Assembly: GCA_021792315.1 (NCBI GenBank)
Contig: JAJYUX010000034.1
Coordinates: 1 to 15,965 of the forward strand
From: an archaeon
GTDB taxonomy: Archaea > Thermoproteota > Nitrososphaeria > Nitrososphaerales > CADDZS01
Direction of reading: 5' to 3'
Length of the DNA stretch: 15,965 bases
The position numbers and the translations under genes are program-made. Shown piece by piece: positions 299 through 14,182 of the stretch. Within the stretch, counting starts at the first letter, position 1. The number at the start of each line of letters is the position of its first letter. The notes under the pieces were generated by a model. That model saw nothing but the letters and a program-made list of their open reading frames with translations. It was not told where the DNA came from and did not search any database.

Positions 299-1546
299 AT
301 GGCAAACAAGATCGTATCTCAACCATTCCCAACTCAAGAAATTGGAAGCATAACCAAACCAAGTTGGAGGGTGAAGGGGGTTTCAAGCGACGGTAGGATC
401 ACAAGTAAAGATATCGAAGAGGCAACTAGCTGGGGGGAAAGACTGAACGTACCAGATTACGATTCGCTCGTTGAAGCGCTTCGCAGGATTTCAACGTCTG
501 ATTCTCCGATTTCAGAAGTGGACAAAATAACGATTCGCAATTTTTCAGTGAAGTACGTCCTTGCACTTTTTGGTAAGACAGGACTTGACAGAGTCTATTC
601 CGGAGAACAATGGAGAGTCGAGATGTATGAACACTTGGTGCGAAATATATCCGGCTTCAAACTACTCGGATCAGTACATTCGTTCGATTACAAGTATTTC
701 ACAAAAGGAGCAGCGGTGGAGAAGCCGAAATTCGCGCACCCGATTCATCTGGAAGAGTTTGAATTTGTGAAAGAGCACACCAAGAAAGAAATCAAAATAC
801 CAATCACCGGTCCATACACTGTTGTCGACTGGTCATTCAACGAATTCTACGAGACTCAGCTTCGAAAGCGCTATGCGAAGAAGAGGCGAATAGATCTCAG
901 AAGAACCTACTTCGAAGCTCGAAGAAGATTCATTCTGGATCTCGTAAAGAACGCCCTCAGACCTGAATTGGAGTTGCTAATTCAGAACGGTGCAGAGTGG
1001 ATTCAGATCGACGAGCCAGCTATTACCACGAGACCAGATGCTGAGGAGATGGAGTTATTCGTTGAGGCGACAAACTCTCTGACCAGAGGTTTGAAGTGTA
1101 CCTTCAGTCTTCACAACTGCTACAGTGATTACAAACTCTTAGCTCATTACGCGAGCAGATTGAAAGACGTAAGTCAGCTTGCGCTTGAGTTTGCAAACAG
1201 AGACAGCACGAATGTAGGAGTGGATTCAGATTCTAGGCCAGGCTATTCAGATTTGCAGCATTTCGTGGACGAAGGTTATGACGGCAGCTTTGGCCTCGGC
1301 GTAACCCACGTTCATGATTTCTCAGGTCCATCTGGCAGCGGTGCCACCGTCGAAGGCAGAAACATCATTGAATCTCCCGAGCTTGTGAGAGACAGAATAT
1401 TATTCGCTGCCAAGCTCCTTCACGATCCTTCTAAGATCTCTGTAAACCCGGATTGTGGACTCAGAACGAGATCGTGGGATGTAATTTACAAAAAGCTTCA
1501 GGCAATGATGGAAGGGACAAAACTTGCCAGAAAAGAGATCAGCTAA
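299..1546 (+). CDS. metE: MetE catalytic-domain protein (cobalamin-independent methionine synthase, C-terminal type)
   Basis: Likely transfers a methyl group from a methylated pterin to homocysteine to make methionine in the cytoplasm. Seen in order: FPTQEIGSI near residue 10, SGEQWRVEM at 101-109 (family: HGE..R.DM), PITGPYTVVDWSF at 168-180, IQIDEPA at 235-241, LHNC at 271-274, LEF at 296-298, and NPDCGLRTR at 383-391. His272, Cys274, Glu297 and Cys386 form the complete His-Cys-Glu-Cys zinc set known from MetE, and Asp238/Glu239 match the substrate-binding IDEP. The 415-residue length corresponds to the C-terminal half of a full MetE with some extra sequence. ATG start with a Shine-Dalgarno site; the 3' end overlaps the next gene by 23 nt, suggesting coupling. 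The Arg/Lys-rich run at 189-211 is an insertion-like feature. The MetE family is secure; the exact methyl donor (folate or another pterin) is inferred. Confidence 0.9.
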   Translation: MANKIVSQPFPTQEIGSITKPSWRVKGVSSDGRITSKDIEEATSWGERLNVPDYDSLVEALRRISTSDSPISEVDKITIRNFSVKYVLALFGKTGLDRVYSGEQWRVEMYEHLVRNISGFKLLGSVHSFDYKYFTKGAAVEKPKFAHPIHLEEFEFVKEHTKKEIKIPITGPYTVVDWSFNEFYETQLRKRYAKKRRIDLRRTYFEARRRFILDLVKNALRPELELLIQNGAEWIQIDEPAITTRPDAEEMELFVEATNSLTRGLKCTFSLHNCYSDYKLLAHYASRLKDVSQLALEFANRDSTNVGVDSDSRPGYSDLQHFVDEGYDGSFGLGVTHVHDFSGPSGSGATVEGRNIIESPELVRDRILFAAKLLHDPSKISVNPDCGLRTRSWDVIYKKLQAMMEGTKLARKEIS

Positions 1547-2801
1547 ACACAAGGGAAAGATTCCATCCACCACCGTCATCGGAAGTTATCCGATCTTCAT
1601 CGCTGACGAACTTGTAAAACAATTCAAAGAGTTTCCTGACGAAGTAGACGATCCTGTAAAGACAAGCATAGAGCTGGCTGTCAGGGATTTCATCAGCGCC
1701 GGGATCGAATATCCTTCTACGGGACAAACGAGAGACTCTTTTATCAGGCTCTTTCTGGATCCCGAGAGAGTCGAAGGAATAGAGATAAATGGCTCTGAGA
1801 TCACAGTCACGGGGAAAATAAAACGCAATGCACCAATCCGCCTCGACGACGTCGTTCGCGCCACGCAATTTGTTCCCAGCTACTACGGGTTCAAGGAGCC
1901 AGTAACTGATCCATATACGCTAGCGAGAAACTGCAGAATCCAGGGATCTGTCTATTCTGACATAAGAGAACTTACCTTTGCGATTGCTAAAGAAATAGTT
2001 GGACCCGAGCTTCAATCACTTTCAAAATATGTGGACTATCTGCAGTTGGATGCGCCCTATTATTCATTTGAACCTTTCAAAGACTACATCAAGCAAGTCT
2101 ACGAAGAGACACTTGCGGACATGAAAGTTCCTGTTGTCTTGCACGTTTGCGGAGATTCCTTCACTATATTCAAGGAGCTGACAAAATTGCAAGTCGATGT
2201 GATTAGTCTCGACTTCACGTACAATGATAAATTACTAGATGAAGTGGCATCGCGCAATTTCGATCAGACAATCGGGGTAGGCTGCGTAAGCACAGGTAAC
2301 ACAATAGTTGAATCTGTGAAGACGATAGGAAACATTTTGCAAAGAGTGTCCAAGCGGATAGGCGAAGAGAGGATACATTTTGTACATCCCGCATGCGGTG
2401 AAAGAAACCTCACAAAGGATGTCGCTTATCAAAAAAACGTGAACCTCACTCTGGCAAGGAACGAAGTATTTCTCGGGCAACCACAGGCCGCACGAAGCGT
2501 TACTCTGAGCGAAAGTGAATATGATCCGAACGGTTACTTCTTGATTCAAGTAGACTCTCACGCCCAGCAGATAGTCGTTTCCTTCAATTCTTATGAAAAC
2601 GTCCCGAAGTTCCGGTGCCAATCGGCGAGCGGTGAGAAATTGATTGCCGCCATAGTTGACAGTAAGATAATCAGCAGTACTGAGCACGGAAAAAGACATC
2701 TTGGTTATGTTGGCTATGAATTGGGAAAAGCCGAAACTGCTCTCAAGAGCAAGGTACCCTACAGGCAAGATAAACCCCTGACTTTGCCGGGTACATACTA
2801 A
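1524..2801 (+). CDS. MesA/core-MetE-like methyltransferase with C-terminal DUF4346-like domain
   Basis: Residues about 14-315 have the MetE/UroD-like barrel words TTVIGSYP (16-23), AGIEYPSTGQTR (59-70), LQLDAP (173-178), LHVCGD (206-211) and HPACGE (288-293). The opening words resemble the folate-independent MesA/MesB group of core methionine synthases more than classical MetE. His207, Cys209 and Cys291 match zinc ligands; the position of the zinc Glu reads Asp230 in my by-eye alignment, and IDEP reads LDAP. Residues about 330-418 form an added domain with DPNGYFLIQVD, EHGKRHLGYVGYEL, KAETAL and YRQD, the pattern I know as DUF4346, also found on MtrA-like corrinoid proteins. This hints at, but does not prove, a corrinoid or pterin partner. 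TTG start at 1524, overlapping the previous gene by 23 nt; no later ATG precedes TTVIGSYP. It probably acts with the neighbouring MetE parts and reductase; the exact reaction is unknown. Confidence 0.75.
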   Translation: MPEKRSAKHKGKIPSTTVIGSYPIFIADELVKQFKEFPDEVDDPVKTSIELAVRDFISAGIEYPSTGQTRDSFIRLFLDPERVEGIEINGSEITVTGKIKRNAPIRLDDVVRATQFVPSYYGFKEPVTDPYTLARNCRIQGSVYSDIRELTFAIAKEIVGPELQSLSKYVDYLQLDAPYYSFEPFKDYIKQVYEETLADMKVPVVLHVCGDSFTIFKELTKLQVDVISLDFTYNDKLLDEVASRNFDQTIGVGCVSTGNTIVESVKTIGNILQRVSKRIGEERIHFVHPACGERNLTKDVAYQKNVNLTLARNEVFLGQPQAARSVTLSESEYDPNGYFLIQVDSHAQQIVVSFNSYENVPKFRCQSASGEKLIAAIVDSKIISSTEHGKRHLGYVGYELGKAETALKSKVPYRQDKPLTLPGTY

Positions 2802-2821
2802 TCTGCGAAGTCGATCGTTTC

Positions 2822-3715
2822 TTGCGACTCTCCGAGACAATCCACGCAGGCAATTTCGCTAAAATCGTCGAGCTTTTCCCTCCGGGCTTGCCCTCTCCAG
2901 AGTCGTTGAAGGAAACCCAACGTTTCGATCTGACTCTCAGGTTTGAGAGACTCGTCGAGAGTGTGACCGAACTAGAGGCTCTCGCAGATGCGTTTTCTCT
3001 CCCGGAGCTAAAGGATGGAATAAGGATTCATCTGAATACTGTTGCTGTGGCTTCGGAATTGAAGAGGCGAACTGGAAGTGATATCATACCAACTGTTACA
3101 CTTCGTGATGCGAACAAGCAGAGTATCCTGGGCATGATTTCTTACGCGATATTCGCGGGATTGGAAAATCTGCAAATAGTCAGGGGTGACCCTTACTTTG
3201 ACGACTCCACTGTCCCAAAAAATGTGTACGACATTTCCAAGGTATCCAGATTGGTAACATTGGTCAGAAAAATCGAGTCACATTCAACCAATTCTGATCG
3301 CATGTGCATACTAGCTCCGATCAACATGATGATACTGAACGACCAAAAATACCTCAAGACCGTCAGAGATAGGCAGGCATCGGGCGTCGATATCTTTGTG
3401 ACGGAGTCACTTTTCGAGAGGATAGACAAGTATCTTGATAGAGTTGTTAAACTTCGAAAGAACGGCGTCAAGATTCCCCTGATTCACAATGTTTTCGCCT
3501 TTAGAGATTATGAGGATGCCATCGCGTGCAAGCAGAAATTTGGGTGGCTGATCTCCGACGAAGAGTTGCATGGACTGAAGACCAGAGGTCCAAGATTTGG
3601 CTTGGAGGCGGCAAAGAAGAGGTACTACGATCTGCTGGATCGCCGCGACATTATTGAGGGAGTGTGCATTTCTACTCGTGGCAACCCAGAGCTCGTGAGA
3701 CAGATTACGAGTTAA
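2822..3715 (+). CDS. metF: Methylenetetrahydrofolate reductase-like protein
   Basis: Predicted to reduce methylene-tetrahydropterin to the methyl form that the methionine synthases upstream would use. Seen: VELFPPG (16-22), matching the FEFFPP word that carries the catalytic Glu of MetF (Glu17 here); TVTLRDANKQSI (91-102); IVRGDP (119-124), matching the flavin-contacting GDP word; and RQASGVDIFVTE (184-195), close to the family's AGAdf-iTQ. At 297 residues it has the size of the bacterial catalytic domain without the eukaryotic regulatory part. TTG start 20 nt after the preceding stop, so most likely in the same operon. The pterin used (tetrahydrofolate or tetrahydromethanopterin type) and the electron donor cannot be told from sequence; a related F420-type or ferredoxin-linked variant is possible. 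Confidence 0.8.
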   Translation: MRLSETIHAGNFAKIVELFPPGLPSPESLKETQRFDLTLRFERLVESVTELEALADAFSLPELKDGIRIHLNTVAVASELKRRTGSDIIPTVTLRDANKQSILGMISYAIFAGLENLQIVRGDPYFDDSTVPKNVYDISKVSRLVTLVRKIESHSTNSDRMCILAPINMMILNDQKYLKTVRDRQASGVDIFVTESLFERIDKYLDRVVKLRKNGVKIPLIHNVFAFRDYEDAIACKQKFGWLISDEELHGLKTRGPRFGLEAAKKRYYDLLDRRDIIEGVCISTRGNPELVRQITS

Positions 3716-3785
3716 AGCAGTCGCAGTTAACTATAGAACAAACTAAAGTATCTGATTTTGAAAGTAATATGTGGATTAATGACAA

Positions 3786-5312
3786 TTGAGCGAAATCAGG
3801 GTTAGACGTTCAGGACTGATTACTTTCGCAATAAAACTCGGAAGTACTCTCACCGGCCTAGCCTTCGTAGTTCTGGTAACAAGCAATCTTAGCCAGTCTG
3901 ATTTTGGCCTGTGGCAGCTAATATCCAGAGTCATCGGATACATCATCTTTGTCGTCAACATCCTTAATTTCTGGACGCTTCGATACCGCGCTCGAGGAAA
4001 CATAATCGGCAAGACTGTAATGTTTGGATCTGCTATTTTCTCACTCGGACTCTCGGTAGCGTTCATCATTCTCTCATTTGGAATAGCCGGAACGGTTACG
4101 GGTGCTTCAGGTTCTCATACAAACATTTACTATTTTCTGATCTCCACGCCACAGGTTCCCCTCTACATATTCTCAGGAGTGATGGAAGCAATTCTTTGGG
4201 GTTCTGCCCCCGCGAGAGCTAGTTTTGGCTTTGGGGTATTCGAAATTGCCAAAGTTGTGATCGGCGCAATAACGGTGGCTGTTCTTCACATGTCTCTTAC
4301 TGGGGCAATTCTTGCGATCATAGGCGCACAGGCGATTCAGATAATCACGATTCTTGCCATGACGCCCAGAGAATACAAAGACATGATTTCCATTCAAATT
4401 CTATCAAAGATGATAAAGACCGGCTGGTTGGCACTGTTGAATCAGCTATATCCACTGGTCGTGAACTTTGATTTTCTTTTAGTGGCACTTATCACGGGTT
4501 CAACTATCCCTCTGGCGCTCTACGGAGCGGCTTTTACTTATGGATCTATAGTCACGTATTCCGGATGGATCGCTTATGGATTGTACGCAGGAATCCTTGG
4601 AGGAGTCGACCCGAAGAAATCTGCCAATCAGGTTTTCGAGCTCCAATACCTCTCAATAATACCCATGGTTCTCGGCGAGATCGTTCTCTCTTACCGCCTT
4701 CTCCACTTATTCAAGGCCGCATACACGACAGCCGTCCCAATTTTGGTAGTTTTGGCAGTCGCCTCCGCGTTCAGTGCCATGAGCCAAACCTTTGACAATG
4801 TCATAACAGCAATCGATACGACAGATGCTACCGAGAACACCGGCTTTGCATTTTATCGGAAGAGCAAACTGTTTCTCATCGCGAAAATAAACATCATACT
4901 TTCGATAAGCTACCTTGTGAGCGTTAGCGTTCTCTCTGGCTTCCTAGACCACAGTTCGTCAATATTGTTTGGGTTCCAGACCTACACCCTCGTGGGATTT
5001 GCGTGGGCTCTCTCAACTCTCATCATGTGGGTGGTGGCAGTTGCAATAAAGCTGAGATATGTTAGGCAGATTACGAATGTCCTAGTGCCAATTCGGACTG
5101 GCGTGGCATTTCTTCTGGGTGCCGTTGCTTACACTTTTATTCTGTACTTTCTGTCAGGTTACCTAGGAATCCACGGCGGCGAAGTGGTTCAGGCGCTGTA
5201 TGTACTCTTCATCGGCATTGTGGGTCTTGCAGTTTATGCTGCCATAATTCTTGCAATTAGTACCTCAATGCGAACCTTGGTTCGATTCGCCCTAACCTCT
5301 CTGAAGAAATAG
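3786..5312 (+). CDS. Multi-spanning membrane protein, polysaccharide flippase (Wzx/MATE-like)
   Basis: A 508-residue, strongly hydrophobic protein with about 12-14 predicted membrane segments spread over its length, short loops and a positively charged N-terminus (RVRRSG). The start, with SGLITFAIKLGSTLTGLAF followed by an LSQSDFGLWQL-type segment, resembles oligosaccharide flippases of the Wzx/RfbX group, which move lipid-linked glycans across the cytoplasmic membrane; the word YGLYAG and the pairs of hydrophobic helices fit. Starts at TTG 3786: stop codons at 3777 and 3780 close the frame upstream and no ATG lies near, so this is the only good start. No glycosyltransferase lies beside it here, so the cargo is unknown. 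It is 70 nt downstream of the reductase gene and may have its own promoter. Function is inferred from overall pattern, not a catalytic motif. Confidence 0.65.
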   Translation: MSEIRVRRSGLITFAIKLGSTLTGLAFVVLVTSNLSQSDFGLWQLISRVIGYIIFVVNILNFWTLRYRARGNIIGKTVMFGSAIFSLGLSVAFIILSFGIAGTVTGASGSHTNIYYFLISTPQVPLYIFSGVMEAILWGSAPARASFGFGVFEIAKVVIGAITVAVLHMSLTGAILAIIGAQAIQIITILAMTPREYKDMISIQILSKMIKTGWLALLNQLYPLVVNFDFLLVALITGSTIPLALYGAAFTYGSIVTYSGWIAYGLYAGILGGVDPKKSANQVFELQYLSIIPMVLGEIVLSYRLLHLFKAAYTTAVPILVVLAVASAFSAMSQTFDNVITAIDTTDATENTGFAFYRKSKLFLIAKINIILSISYLVSVSVLSGFLDHSSSILFGFQTYTLVGFAWALSTLIMWVVAVAIKLRYVRQITNVLVPIRTGVAFLLGAVAYTFILYFLSGYLGIHGGEVVQALYVLFIGIVGLAVYAAIILAISTSMRTLVRFALTSLKK

Positions 5313-5317
5313 AGAAT

Positions 5318-5396
5318 TGTGCCCCGGCTCTGACACTAAGCGCTCATCGGCATGCAATCTAGTTGCCTTTACCTTTCGCTAGCTCTAATCCGGGGC
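5318..5396 (-). ncRNA. Candidate H/ACA guide RNA hairpin 1
   Basis: On the minus strand GCCCCGG (5396-5390) pairs with CCGGGGC (5327-5321), and ACA follows at once (5320-5318). Inside lies a pocket of ATTAGAG (5389-5383) opposite TGTCAGAG (5335-5328), then an upper stem CTAGCG (5382-5377) with CGCTTAG (5342-5336, one bulged T). A purine-rich internal loop with GATGA on its 3' side (kink-turn-like) follows, capped by GGCA/TGCC. The upper stem is 15 nt from the ACA, within the 14-16 nt rule for archaeal H/ACA guides. Such RNAs, with L7Ae, Cbf5, Nop10 and Gar1, direct rRNA pseudouridylation. The segment is visibly more GC-rich than its surroundings. Found by hand-folding only. Confidence 0.45.
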
Positions 5397-5421
5397 GCCA
5401 GAAAGGGACACCTTTGCAATC

Positions 5422-5478
5422 TGTTTCGCTTCTGGGTAAACCTCATTCATCACTGATCAGATGAGGCCGTCGAAGCGA
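5422..5478 (-). ncRNA. Candidate H/ACA guide RNA hairpin 2 with K-loop
   Basis: On the minus strand TCGCTTC (5478-5472) pairs with GAAGCGA (5432-5426); after one A comes ACA (5424-5422). The pocket is GACGG (5471-5467) opposite TTTACCCA (5440-5433). The upper stem is CCTCAT (5466-5461) with ATGAGG (5446-5441), capped by CTGA, TCA, GTGATGA. That cap is the exact CUGA/RUGAUGA pair that L7Ae binds as a kink-turn or K-loop. The upper stem is 16 nt from the ACA. It lies 25 nt 5' of hairpin 1 on the same strand and 57 nt after the pheT stop, so both may be processed from the 3' end of the trpS-pheS-pheT transcript or from a two-hairpin RNA. Confidence 0.5.
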
Positions 5479-5535
5479 TTTGTCGATCGCCCGTGATTCC
5501 TTTCCGGCAAAGATTATCTGGTTCTTGCCCAGTGT

Positions 5536-7185
5536 TTATTCTTTTAGAAACGTCTCAAGGTTAATCTCAAAACCGACTGCGGGAACTTTCAAACCATATC
5601 TTTCGAGTGTGGCTGGAGAAATCTCGCCAACCAACCCGATCACTGCAGTTCCTCCCTCATTTCTTAATGAAATTACCGCATATCTTCCTGATGCAAACAA
5701 ACTGCTGTTGTCCATCGAAGCAACGTAGGATACCGAATCCTTGCCATCAAGAGTCAGTTTCAAGAAAGCATCGACCACAGATCGAATCACGCTGTAGTTC
5801 GCCGAGGAATCCGCTATGAGGACACCGGCATGCTCTTCTTCATCAACTTGCAAAATGCTCGAAGAAGAGCGCTTGAAGACTGGAGCCTGTTCGAAAATCT
5901 TCTGAGGGTATTCTTGATGGGTGGAGTTCCCGAGAACAGTAAGCAAAGATCTGAGAATATCCCCGCGCAGATACTCATAGTTCTGCGACTTGGAATCATC
6001 GACTTTGAGTGCCCCGGCAGCTACCTGATCGGCACCAGTTAGTGAGAGATTCCAAATCTCAGTGAGCCCTAGGCCGACAAGTCCCTCGATCATTCTGTCA
6101 AGTCTATTCTGCCTTCCTGAAAAGGAACCGACCAGAGAAGTCTGCACGCTTTGCGGCTTTATCAACTGAATTCCGAATCCCAGTGCAACCTCTTCGACCA
6201 AGTCAATCGGATGAATTATGTCGTGTCGGTACCTTGGAATTGCGACGCTCCCGTTTGCATAGGTTCCGATCCTGCTGCGACCCAAGCAGTGCTCAGCTTG
6301 CCTCATTGTGAAATCATAGCCGATGATGCTCTTTGTCAGGTCGAGGTCAAATCGCATAGTCTTTGGTGTCATGTTTGGCGTCGTTACGGATCCCTGCGGC
6401 CTGTGAATTTCAACTGAATATACTCTGGCCCCTGAATCTGAGAGCATGGCGGCTATGATGGCAGTTGAAGTATCCACGACTCTGTCATCGGTTCCTGTGA
6501 GGTCGACAAACACCTTTGTCTGTCCTGCCGCGAGTCTCGTGAGATCACCGTTGATTATGGGCGGCATTGAGAGAAGGCTTCCATGCGAATCTTCTAGAAT
6601 CGGATATGATCCAGATGAGAGTAACTTCCCGTACGAAATACCCTGCTCGATTCCTGTCAAGATTTGACTGATAGTTTGCCTTTCCTTCGAACCCAGCGGA
6701 GGAAAGGAGTAATTCTGATCTCTTGTGGCCTGGTACATTATCTGATTCGTGATAACTTCTGCATTGTGAATGCCAATTGCAACCTTTGACCTCCGCCTTC
6801 CGATTCCATTGTGGAGATCTTCTTGCATTGTGATCAGTTGCTTGATCAGTTCGTCTGTTAACGTGATTTCCGCATATATTGCATGGATGAATGGTCTTAC
6901 ACTTTTGATTTCGTCGCCTACAACAGAAACTCTGTATTTAGATGGAAGGAACACATACTTCGGTGCTCCAAGCTCTAGTCCTAGAATTCCGACGAGTGAT
7001 CGGGCAATTCCAACCTCACTTGAAAAGTCGGGTCGATTGGGGCTGTATTCTACACTGACAACATCTTCCGAGCGGTCCTCAATATCCAATCCGAGATATG
7101 GAAGCGTCTCGAAAATCTTTTCCTCATCAACCTTGTTTCTGCAAAACTGCTTCAACCTAGCGAGAGAAAGCTGTATGACGGGCAT
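5536..7185 (-). CDS. pheT: Phenylalanyl-tRNA synthetase beta subunit (archaeal type)
   Basis: Forms the (alpha-beta)2 PheRS that charges tRNA-Phe; the beta chain carries the editing domain and a catalytic-like module. Seen: SPNRPDFSSEVGIAR (48-62), the B1-region word; MPPIING (207-213) in the B3/B4 editing domain; the B5 word YRHDIIHPIDLVEEVALGFG (319-338); and GEISPATLERYGL (520-532) near the end. At 549 residues it has archaeal/eukaryal length and lacks the bacterial EMAP-like and C-terminal anticodon domains. ATG start 6 nt after the pheS stop, with a weak AAGGTC ribosome site overlapping that stop, so it is co-translated with pheS. Last protein gene of the trpS-pheS-pheT operon. Nothing is broken in the reading frame. 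Confidence 0.96.
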   Translation of the reverse strand: MPVIQLSLARLKQFCRNKVDEEKIFETLPYLGLDIEDRSEDVVSVEYSPNRPDFSSEVGIARSLVGILGLELGAPKYVFLPSKYRVSVVGDEIKSVRPFIHAIYAEITLTDELIKQLITMQEDLHNGIGRRRSKVAIGIHNAEVITNQIMYQATRDQNYSFPPLGSKERQTISQILTGIEQGISYGKLLSSGSYPILEDSHGSLLSMPPIINGDLTRLAAGQTKVFVDLTGTDDRVVDTSTAIIAAMLSDSGARVYSVEIHRPQGSVTTPNMTPKTMRFDLDLTKSIIGYDFTMRQAEHCLGRSRIGTYANGSVAIPRYRHDIIHPIDLVEEVALGFGIQLIKPQSVQTSLVGSFSGRQNRLDRMIEGLVGLGLTEIWNLSLTGADQVAAGALKVDDSKSQNYEYLRGDILRSLLTVLGNSTHQEYPQKIFEQAPVFKRSSSSILQVDEEEHAGVLIADSSANYSVIRSVVDAFLKLTLDGKDSVSYVASMDNSSLFASGRYAVISLRNEGGTAVIGLVGEISPATLERYGLKVPAVGFEINLETFLKE

Positions 7186-13808: not shown

Positions 13809-13928
13809 TGTCAGCCGGCCATAGCGTGCGGGATCGACCTGGACTCATTCCGAACCCAGAAGTCAAACCGCATGTCGCCGTCATATTAGTGAGGTGCGTG
13901 AGCCCTCGTGAGGTGGCGGTGCTGGCAC
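13809..13928 (+). rRNA. rrf: 5S ribosomal RNA
   Basis: The central block GACCTGGACTCATTCCGAAC followed by CCAGAAGTCAAACCGC (13835 onward) is the hallmark loop B/helix III region of archaeal 5S rRNA. Helix I forms between TGTCAGC (13809-13815) and GCTGGCA (13921-13927) with one T-G wobble; helix II pairs GTGCGG with CCGCAT; the IV/V arm runs from CGCCGTCATA to GAGGTGGCG. The length of about 120 nt fits. No 16S or 23S rRNA is near, so the gene is unlinked, as in many Thermoproteota, Thaumarchaeota and Thermoplasmata. The ends are set by helix I and may shift by 1-3 nt. A T-rich TTCTTCCATTTT tract (13930-13941) follows and may end transcription. Confidence 0.92.
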
Positions 13929-14182
13929 CTTCTTCCATTTTCACTCGTGATCTCGACCATTTCAGCAAGCCCTTTTGGGTCAATGTACAACCTTTGTACA
14001 ACCTTTTCTGAAACTGCGGTGCTCAACTTGTCCAAATAGTAATTGCTTGGCGAATAAGAACCGTTGATAAAGTCCCTGACCATCTCTGCAATGCTTGTGT
14101 AGCCACTCTGCCTTAGTTTCAGATTAAGGGCCGCTATCTGTTCCTCATTGAGCTTGACTCCAATCGTTCTACGTTGAACCAT
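13886..14182 (-). CDS. Ribbon-helix-helix DNA-binding protein, 3' end overlapping 5S rRNA
   Basis: 98 residues. The first 41 form an RHH domain: a basic beta strand RRTIGVKL, helix NEEQIAALNLKLRQSG and helix SIAEMVRDFIN, as in CopG/NikR-type repressors. A second region (about 48-80) carries LDKLSTAVSEKVVQRLYIDP, possibly for multimerisation or ligand binding. ATG start at 14182, with a TTTAAA box (14217-14222) about 37 nt upstream. The last 13 residues (about 86-98, rich in His and Arg) are encoded by the complement of the 5S rRNA 3' end, so the natural C-terminus may have been cut and replaced. Likely a small transcription regulator; target unknown. It lies downstream of the large winged-helix protein on the same strand. 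Confidence 0.7.
   Translation of the reverse strand: MVQRRTIGVKLNEEQIAALNLKLRQSGYTSIAEMVRDFINGSYSPSNYYLDKLSTAVSEKVVQRLYIDPKGLAEMVEITSENGRRCQHRHLTRAHAPH
13930..13941 (+). terminator. Pyrimidine-rich end of 5S transcript
   Basis: TTCTTCCATTTT directly after helix I of the 5S rRNA. Archaeal RNA polymerase often stops at T-rich tracts. It lies inside the antisense ribbon-helix-helix gene, so the evidence is only positional. Confidence 0.3.

Follow-up and report, generated by a model that had tools for sequence, protein, structure and literature searches.

A conserved two-hairpin RNA encoded behind pheT in Nitrososphaerales, probably an archaeal box H/ACA guide

Behind pheT on the minus strand of a Nitrososphaerales contig, we found a gene for an RNA of about 195 bases that folds into two hairpins (about 5318-5511). 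As judged from its sequence and from those of its relatives, this RNA is most probably, at about 0.9, an archaeal two-hairpin box H/ACA guide sRNA. Its 3' hairpin (hairpin 1) has a well-supported predicted target in helix 69 of 23S rRNA, and for its 5' hairpin (hairpin 2) the peptidyl-transferase loop is the favoured candidate. All positions refer to the window, the whole stretch of 15,965 nucleotides that was analysed.

Results

Structure of the two-hairpin RNA

The gap downstream of pheT on the minus strand is 223 nt long, and the window's pheT is 63% identical to that of the Nitrososphaerales MAG L001. Within this gap the sRNA gene was placed at 5318..5511 (minus strand) by conservation and a covariance model, with an approximate 5' end that was set from an AT-rich box and from stem P1. 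The first-pass annotation had described two tandem H/ACA hairpins at 5318..5478 of the minus strand; both were found there by sequence, coordinates and folds, and the element proved to be longer than that extent. Folding of the region, which the annotation had proposed as a check, produced both hairpins, and for 5300-5535 the z-score was -3.67, with none of 200 shuffled sequences equally stable.

Hairpin 1 (5318..5396, minus strand; fold and covariation) consists of the lower stem GCCCCGG (5390-5396)/CCGGGGC (5321-5327), the left guide strand AUUAGA (5384..5389), the right guide strand GUCAGAG (5328..5334) and an ACA at 5318-5320. The stretch 5335..5348 (minus strand) carries the bulged strand GAU-GA of a K-turn and the 3' strand of the upper stem, the strands of which pair in relatives. 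Folded alone, hairpin 1 gave a z-score of -1.99, and 8 of 200 shuffles were as stable. The K-turn was read by eye and is clearest in L021 (the same RNA as L038), where the upper stem has eight pairs, one bulge and two sheared pairs, thus ten layers; the upper part in the window, also read by eye, has seven pairs, one A-G mismatch and an AA/GA variant. Ten layers from the pocket were counted by eye in the window and in some relatives. Such a count from pocket to K-turn or K-loop is given as a mark of productive guides in the available part of PMC4652768. By an automatic check, at least five of eight positions of the upper strands paired in 43 of the 63 RNAs that could be parsed (70 tried), the 14-nt distance to the ACA being fixed by the search pattern and thus not independent in this check.

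Hairpin 2 (5422..5478, minus strand; fold and covariation) consists of the lower stem UCGCUUC (5472-5478)/GAAGCGA (5426-5432), the left guide strand GACGG (5467..5471), the upper stem CCUCAU/AUGAGG, the right guide strand UUUACCCA (5433..5440) and an ACA at 5422-5424. It is capped by the exact K-loop words CUGA-UCA-GUGAUGA (5447..5460, minus strand), as had been noted at first sight, and these would be the L7Ae site; similar words occur in many relatives, and varied ones in others. Folded alone, hairpin 2 gave a z-score of -2.93, and 3 of 200 shuffles were as stable.

Both hairpins thus have a lower stem, a two-sided pocket and an upper stem by folds and covariation. The 7-bp lower stems read in the first pass were found in both, as was the ACA directly after the lower stem in hairpin 1 and 1 nt after it in hairpin 2. 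The distance from upper stem to ACA stood at 16 nt for hairpin 2; for hairpin 1 it is 14 nt, not 15 nt, on the reading that uses the upper stem supported by relatives, and both lie within the range of 14-16 nt. In relatives the distance in hairpin 2 is 15-16 nt by reading. Since productive H/ACA folds have the closing pair 14-15 nt from the ACA (PMC4652768, in the part available), hairpin 2 of the window lies outside that narrower range. Pairing of the lower strands was also better with their own partners than with swapped ones, at 6.66 versus 5.29 of 7 pairs for hairpin 1 and 5.71 versus 4.49 of 6 pairs for hairpin 2.

The spacing of 25 nt between the hairpins was confirmed; this spacer, however, is not empty: P2 and P1, two more stems, have their 3' strands in it. 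The outer stem P1 pairs the strand GCCGGAAAGG (5499..5508, minus strand) with CCUUUCUGGC (5397..5406) by folding, and an outer stem with different letters was seen in single-sequence folds of seven of the eight window-clade relatives, the exception being L015. Enclosed by P1 in the window fold is the closing stem P2, in which GCGAUC (5485..5490, minus strand) pairs with GAUUGC (5416..5421), 6 bp in the window. For 59 RNAs (window included, L150 left out, a start of 0-2 nt after the ACA permitted), the mean length of P2 was 8.1 bp with the own partner versus 4.3 bp with swapped partners; at least five pairs were formed by 53 of the 59 own partners, but also by 45% of the swaps. P2 begins at 0 nt after the ACA in 49 of the 59. 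With P2 starting right after it, the hairpin 2 ACA becomes part of an internal loop. The ACA described in PMC4652768, PMC7991803 and PMC3608112 follows the lower stem as a 3' element, and a closing stem like P2 was not found in the parts of these three papers available to us.

Conservation and covariation

Searched at the DNA level, 400 genomes of the order yielded 15 with matches, eight of them clear relatives; the other seven were set aside, as their matches were only 21-36 nt long. The nearest relative, the genome of L001, has one place with 178 nt at 84% identity, and its other seven matches had E values of at least 0.5. Guide strands, ACA boxes and K-loop letters are common to the nine sequences including the window, and the stems change in step. 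The covariance model built from these nine sequences matched 163 of 400 genomes of the order (E <=0.01, one match per genome listed), which is an undercount, as G090 and G135 are absent there and were found in the phylum search. It also matched 158 of 400 genomes of the class (E <=0.01), a sample that has many genomes in common with that of the order, and 26 of 300 genomes of the phylum (E <=0.001). Among these 26 were five further loci, four of them two-hairpin and more diverged (two of the four near-identical); locus L172 of this search has hairpin 1 only. Because the scores of the five are low (23-31 bits), membership outside the class is no more than possible.

Compensatory changes in relatives had been proposed as a check, and the stems were found to covary. 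In an alignment of 51 sequences, 90.2% of cells were paired, and the covariation score was 0.490 versus 0.154 for shuffled alignments (0/500 reach it) and at most 0.092 for slid ones, the alignment having been fitted to the covariance model, which favours this score. Pairs altered on both sides numbered 17 of 24, a count reached by 23 of 500 shuffles. The first-pass annotation had argued that two such hairpins in one gap were unlikely by chance; chance can now be excluded because of conservation, namely the 84% identity in the nearest relative, the matches in 163/400 genomes and the covariation far above shuffled and slid controls.

Among the 51 model matches, 48 carry [GA]ACGG followed by ACCCA (absent in L168, L170 and L171), 46 carry GUCAG near the 3' end and four GUUCAG, with neither in L169, and 50 end in ACA. 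The right guide strand of hairpin 1 reads GUUCAG, with an extra U, in L036, L050, L055 and L165. When 87 loci were parsed for both hairpins, four lacked hairpin 1 and 22 were called hairpin-1-only; nine of these 22 were parser errors (window included), one was cut by a contig end and 12 are seemingly single. As the parser required the guide words, the word count in the model matches is the fairer one. The loci with hairpin 1 only are L089, L090, L092, L093, L144, L151, L152, L161, L162, L168, L170 and L171; several of them lie directly behind pheT, with hairpin 2 lost or elsewhere.

No family of Rfam 15 matched the RNA above its gathering score, in the window or in 15 relatives' loci; at relaxed thresholds four weak matches to this stretch appeared, with no H/ACA model among them. 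The Rfam search also detected a tRNA in locus L055. An exact DNA pattern of the RNA had no match in viral contigs.

Hairpin 1 and helix 69 of 23S rRNA

The right guide strand GUCAGAG of hairpin 1 pairs over 7 bp with CUCUGAC of 23S helix 69, and (A)AGA of the left strand pairs with UCU(U), around an unpaired UC. The pocket is thus complementary to rRNA around an unpaired UN, more weakly so in L046. For five guides on two rRNA loci this site ranked top, with 7+3 to 7+5 contiguous pairs, and helix 69 is intact in 10 of 11 rRNA loci (11 of 12 fetched loci used). The pair AAGA/GUCAGAG was matched as well on rRNA by 26 of 20000 shuffled guides; in shuffles of single sequences, 0, 4, 6 and 18 of 1000 did as well, 18 being the value for the window. 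L046 pairs by 5+3 only, equalled by 227 of 1000 shuffles. The hit depends on the pocket register chosen for hairpin 1: for L041 one register puts the site on top and another leaves it out of the top sites, and for L046 it is top in two of three registers. By helix 69 numbering, we take the target U of CUCUGAC[U]CUCUU to be E. coli U1921, the equivalent of yeast Psi2264. Yeast 25S Psi2264 is listed under snR3 in the available part of PMC8307265. A target of hairpin 1 in helix 69 at U1921 is, as a prediction, well supported.

Two loci, L076 (G007) and L083 (G072), have a 23S gene whose sequence is interrupted within helix 69 or immediately behind it. In L076 about 740 bases lie between CUC and UUAAGG, inside the stretch that hairpin 1 would pair. 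An intron in helix 69 would make guiding by hairpin 1 dependent on splicing.

Hairpin 2 and the peptidyl-transferase loop

The words (G)ACGG and ACCCA(G) of hairpin 2 match CUGGGU-UUAGA-CCGUC in the peptidyl-transferase loop, GACGG pairing with CCGUC, and ACCCA plus the next G pairing with CUGGGU. This was the single place in the 16S and 23S rRNA of one genome, and the site is present in 10 of 11 rRNA loci. A match as good was given by 62 of 20000 shuffles for GACGG/ACCCAG, by 428 of 20000 with the shorter ACCCA and by 158 of 3000 with GU allowed, the spacer range and the words having been chosen after the site was seen. Between the arms of the match that draws on every conserved word, five bases of the target stay unpaired; we take these to be U2585, U2586, A2587, G2588 and A2589. 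For 2584 and 2586 this numbering is the same as in the table of PMC2584109, as far as that paper was available, and even a three-base spacer is called an anomaly in the available part of PMC4652768. The loci L164-L166 carry AACCCA, which would extend pairing to U2585 and leave U2586 first in line. On this complementarity we lean towards U2585/U2586 of the peptidyl-transferase loop, reached with a non-canonical spacer, as the target of hairpin 2, and hold this with little more than even confidence because a spacer of 4-5 bases breaks the UN rule.

Two canonical sites compete with this one, 16S GGUGAA[U]ACGUC and 23S GGGURAG[U]UCCGAC, which presumably correspond to about E. coli 16S U1376 and about 23S U1955. 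The guide of the window forms 6+4 pairs at the former and 7+3 at the latter, both sites are conserved in the rRNA loci, and at the 16S site the variable pyrimidine of UUY-ACC faces a G. Neither, however, uses all the conserved letters, GACGG and ACCCAG, and the canonical sites are weaker than the match that does; both drop from the top sites with the guides that carry CCACCCAG or UCACCCAG (L057, L048), and the best canonical score was reached by 40-47 of 1000 shuffles. Canonical guiding of either site is therefore an unlikely, if still appreciable, alternative.

Somewhat less probable again is that the H/ACA-like RNA is real and hairpin 2 helps rRNA to fold instead of guiding a modification. 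The five-base spacer at the peptidyl-transferase loop and the ACA closed by P2 would suit such a role, against which stands the retention of H/ACA parts, such as the ACA and, for many relatives, the words of the K-loop.

Returning to the reading in which hairpin 2 acts on U2585/U2586, the RNA may represent an H/ACA variant with a P2-closed ACA in hairpin 2 and arms that straddle 4-5 unpaired bases in U2585-A2589, a proposal that we put forward tentatively, with odds somewhat against it. A P2-closed hairpin 2 with the guide words of the straddled spacer is kept in relatives across the order, and this combined geometry was not found in the parts of the literature that were available.

Gene context and expression

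The conserved upstream neighbour is pheT (5536..7185, minus strand, by Pfam). Of 80 loci, 58 have a same-strand pheT match upstream, 55 of them within 170 nt; the remaining three are more than 170 nt away, short C-terminal matches with E up to 0.25 are counted, and 12 of the 22 loci without a match had less than 170 nt of upstream sequence. In L018 and L021 the RNA is present with no pheT in the 1.5 kb examined upstream. A TATA-like box, AATAAAC (5534..5540, minus strand), overlaps the pheT stop and lies some 26 nt before the putative 5' end; other members of the window clade carry a TTAAA- or ATAAA-like word at this position. In archaea a TATA box is expected at about -30 to -26. Over 59 relatives this interval, counted from the 5' end of P2, had an A+T fraction of 0.78-0.88; single columns elsewhere, e.g. 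at -49 and -35, reach 0.80-0.81. Because of the AT-rich box at -30 to -26 and of the relatives without pheT upstream, an own promoter appears likelier than processing from the trpS-pheS-pheT mRNA, which the first-pass annotation had suggested and which found no support. For the same loci and box, and with guide words that match rRNA, it is very improbable that the RNA acts in cis on the pheT mRNA, as a 3' UTR element or a terminator, even with pheT upstream in 58 of the 80 loci.

The other side of the RNA, at 299-5312 on the plus strand, carries a row of genes, two for MetE-type methionine synthase-like proteins and one for an MTHFR-like protein. The MTHFR-like gene of L001 faces the RNA gene directly; in the window a 508-aa ORF without a Pfam match (3786-5312) lies between the two, and L018 carries a relative of this ORF beside its RNA. 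The only Rfam match above gathering score in the window is a 5S rRNA gene at 13811-13930 on the plus strand (70.7 bits); no 16S or 23S rRNA gene was found in the window.

Identity and proposed mechanism

The H/ACA reading of the first pass gained support from the covarying stems, the kept ACA and guide words, the K-loop and K-turn and the target complementarity of hairpin 1, as well as from the H/ACA protein genes in relatives: Nop10 and Cbf5 (DKCLD) were each found in 10 of 10 relatives' genomes, and Gar1 in 9 of 10, over its cut-off in five. A box C/D methylation guide, with CUGA as D' box and UGAUGA as C' box, was rejected as highly implausible, since its weak Rfam match to sR44 scored 15.5 bits against a cut-off of 45 with the terminal C and D boxes mismatched, and since these words cap a covarying stem, like an H/ACA K-loop.

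The following model is drawn from sequence analysis. The RNA would be transcribed, probably from its own promoter behind pheT, and each hairpin is expected to bind Cbf5, Nop10, Gar1 and L7Ae, so placing a uridine of 23S rRNA in the active site of Cbf5. Hairpin 1 would then direct Cbf5 to pseudouridylate the bracketed U of CUCUGAC[U]CUCUU in helix 69 (E. coli U1921), and hairpin 2 would most likely act on the peptidyl-transferase loop at U2585/U2586.

Discussion

An RNA of similar make-up is HP1/HP2 (Hvo1/Hvo2) of Haloferax volcanii, which we take to be sR-h45. Its two H/ACA hairpins are assigned to U2586 (Psi2621) and helix 69 (PMC2584109, PMC4652768, in the parts available), and the parallel with the target pair predicted here is striking. 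According to the same partial sources, the two differ in several respects: Haloferax HP2 is assigned to U1915 and U1917, whereas hairpin 1 is predicted for U1921; a long spacer separates the Haloferax hairpins; the guide of hairpin 2 is off register, unlike that of the Haloferax hairpin; and no P2 stem is described in the available parts of PMC2584109 and PMC4652768. Pf7/Pab40 of Pyrococcus and Afu4 of Archaeoglobus likewise have several H/ACA hairpins and a target in helix 69 (U1915), as far as the sources at hand describe them; Pf7 has three hairpins instead of two, and its target is U1915 instead of the predicted U1921. Yeast snR3 is listed as the guide of 25S Psi2264, the position predicted for hairpin 1 (PMC8307265, in the part available); snR3 is a eukaryotic snoRNA, and the likeness is one of target, not of descent.

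In the open-access literature, no paper on this RNA was found by title or abstract among the matches listed, which is weak evidence of novelty; the available parts of PMC5069720 and PMC4836417 likewise contain nothing on it. On this weak evidence, we regard it as a previously undescribed RNA of a known kind, the archaeal H/ACA guide, without an Rfam family; it could become one. According to PMC7991803 (in the part available), pseudouridines are few in archaeal rRNA, and H/ACA RNAs therefore few as well. Should the off-register hairpin 2 work, H/ACA guide rules would have to be widened; if it does not guide, the RNA may help rRNA folding. With this RNA the order gains a conserved, probable pseudouridine guide, whose predicted targets are two core sites of the ribosome, one of them the position of yeast Psi2264.
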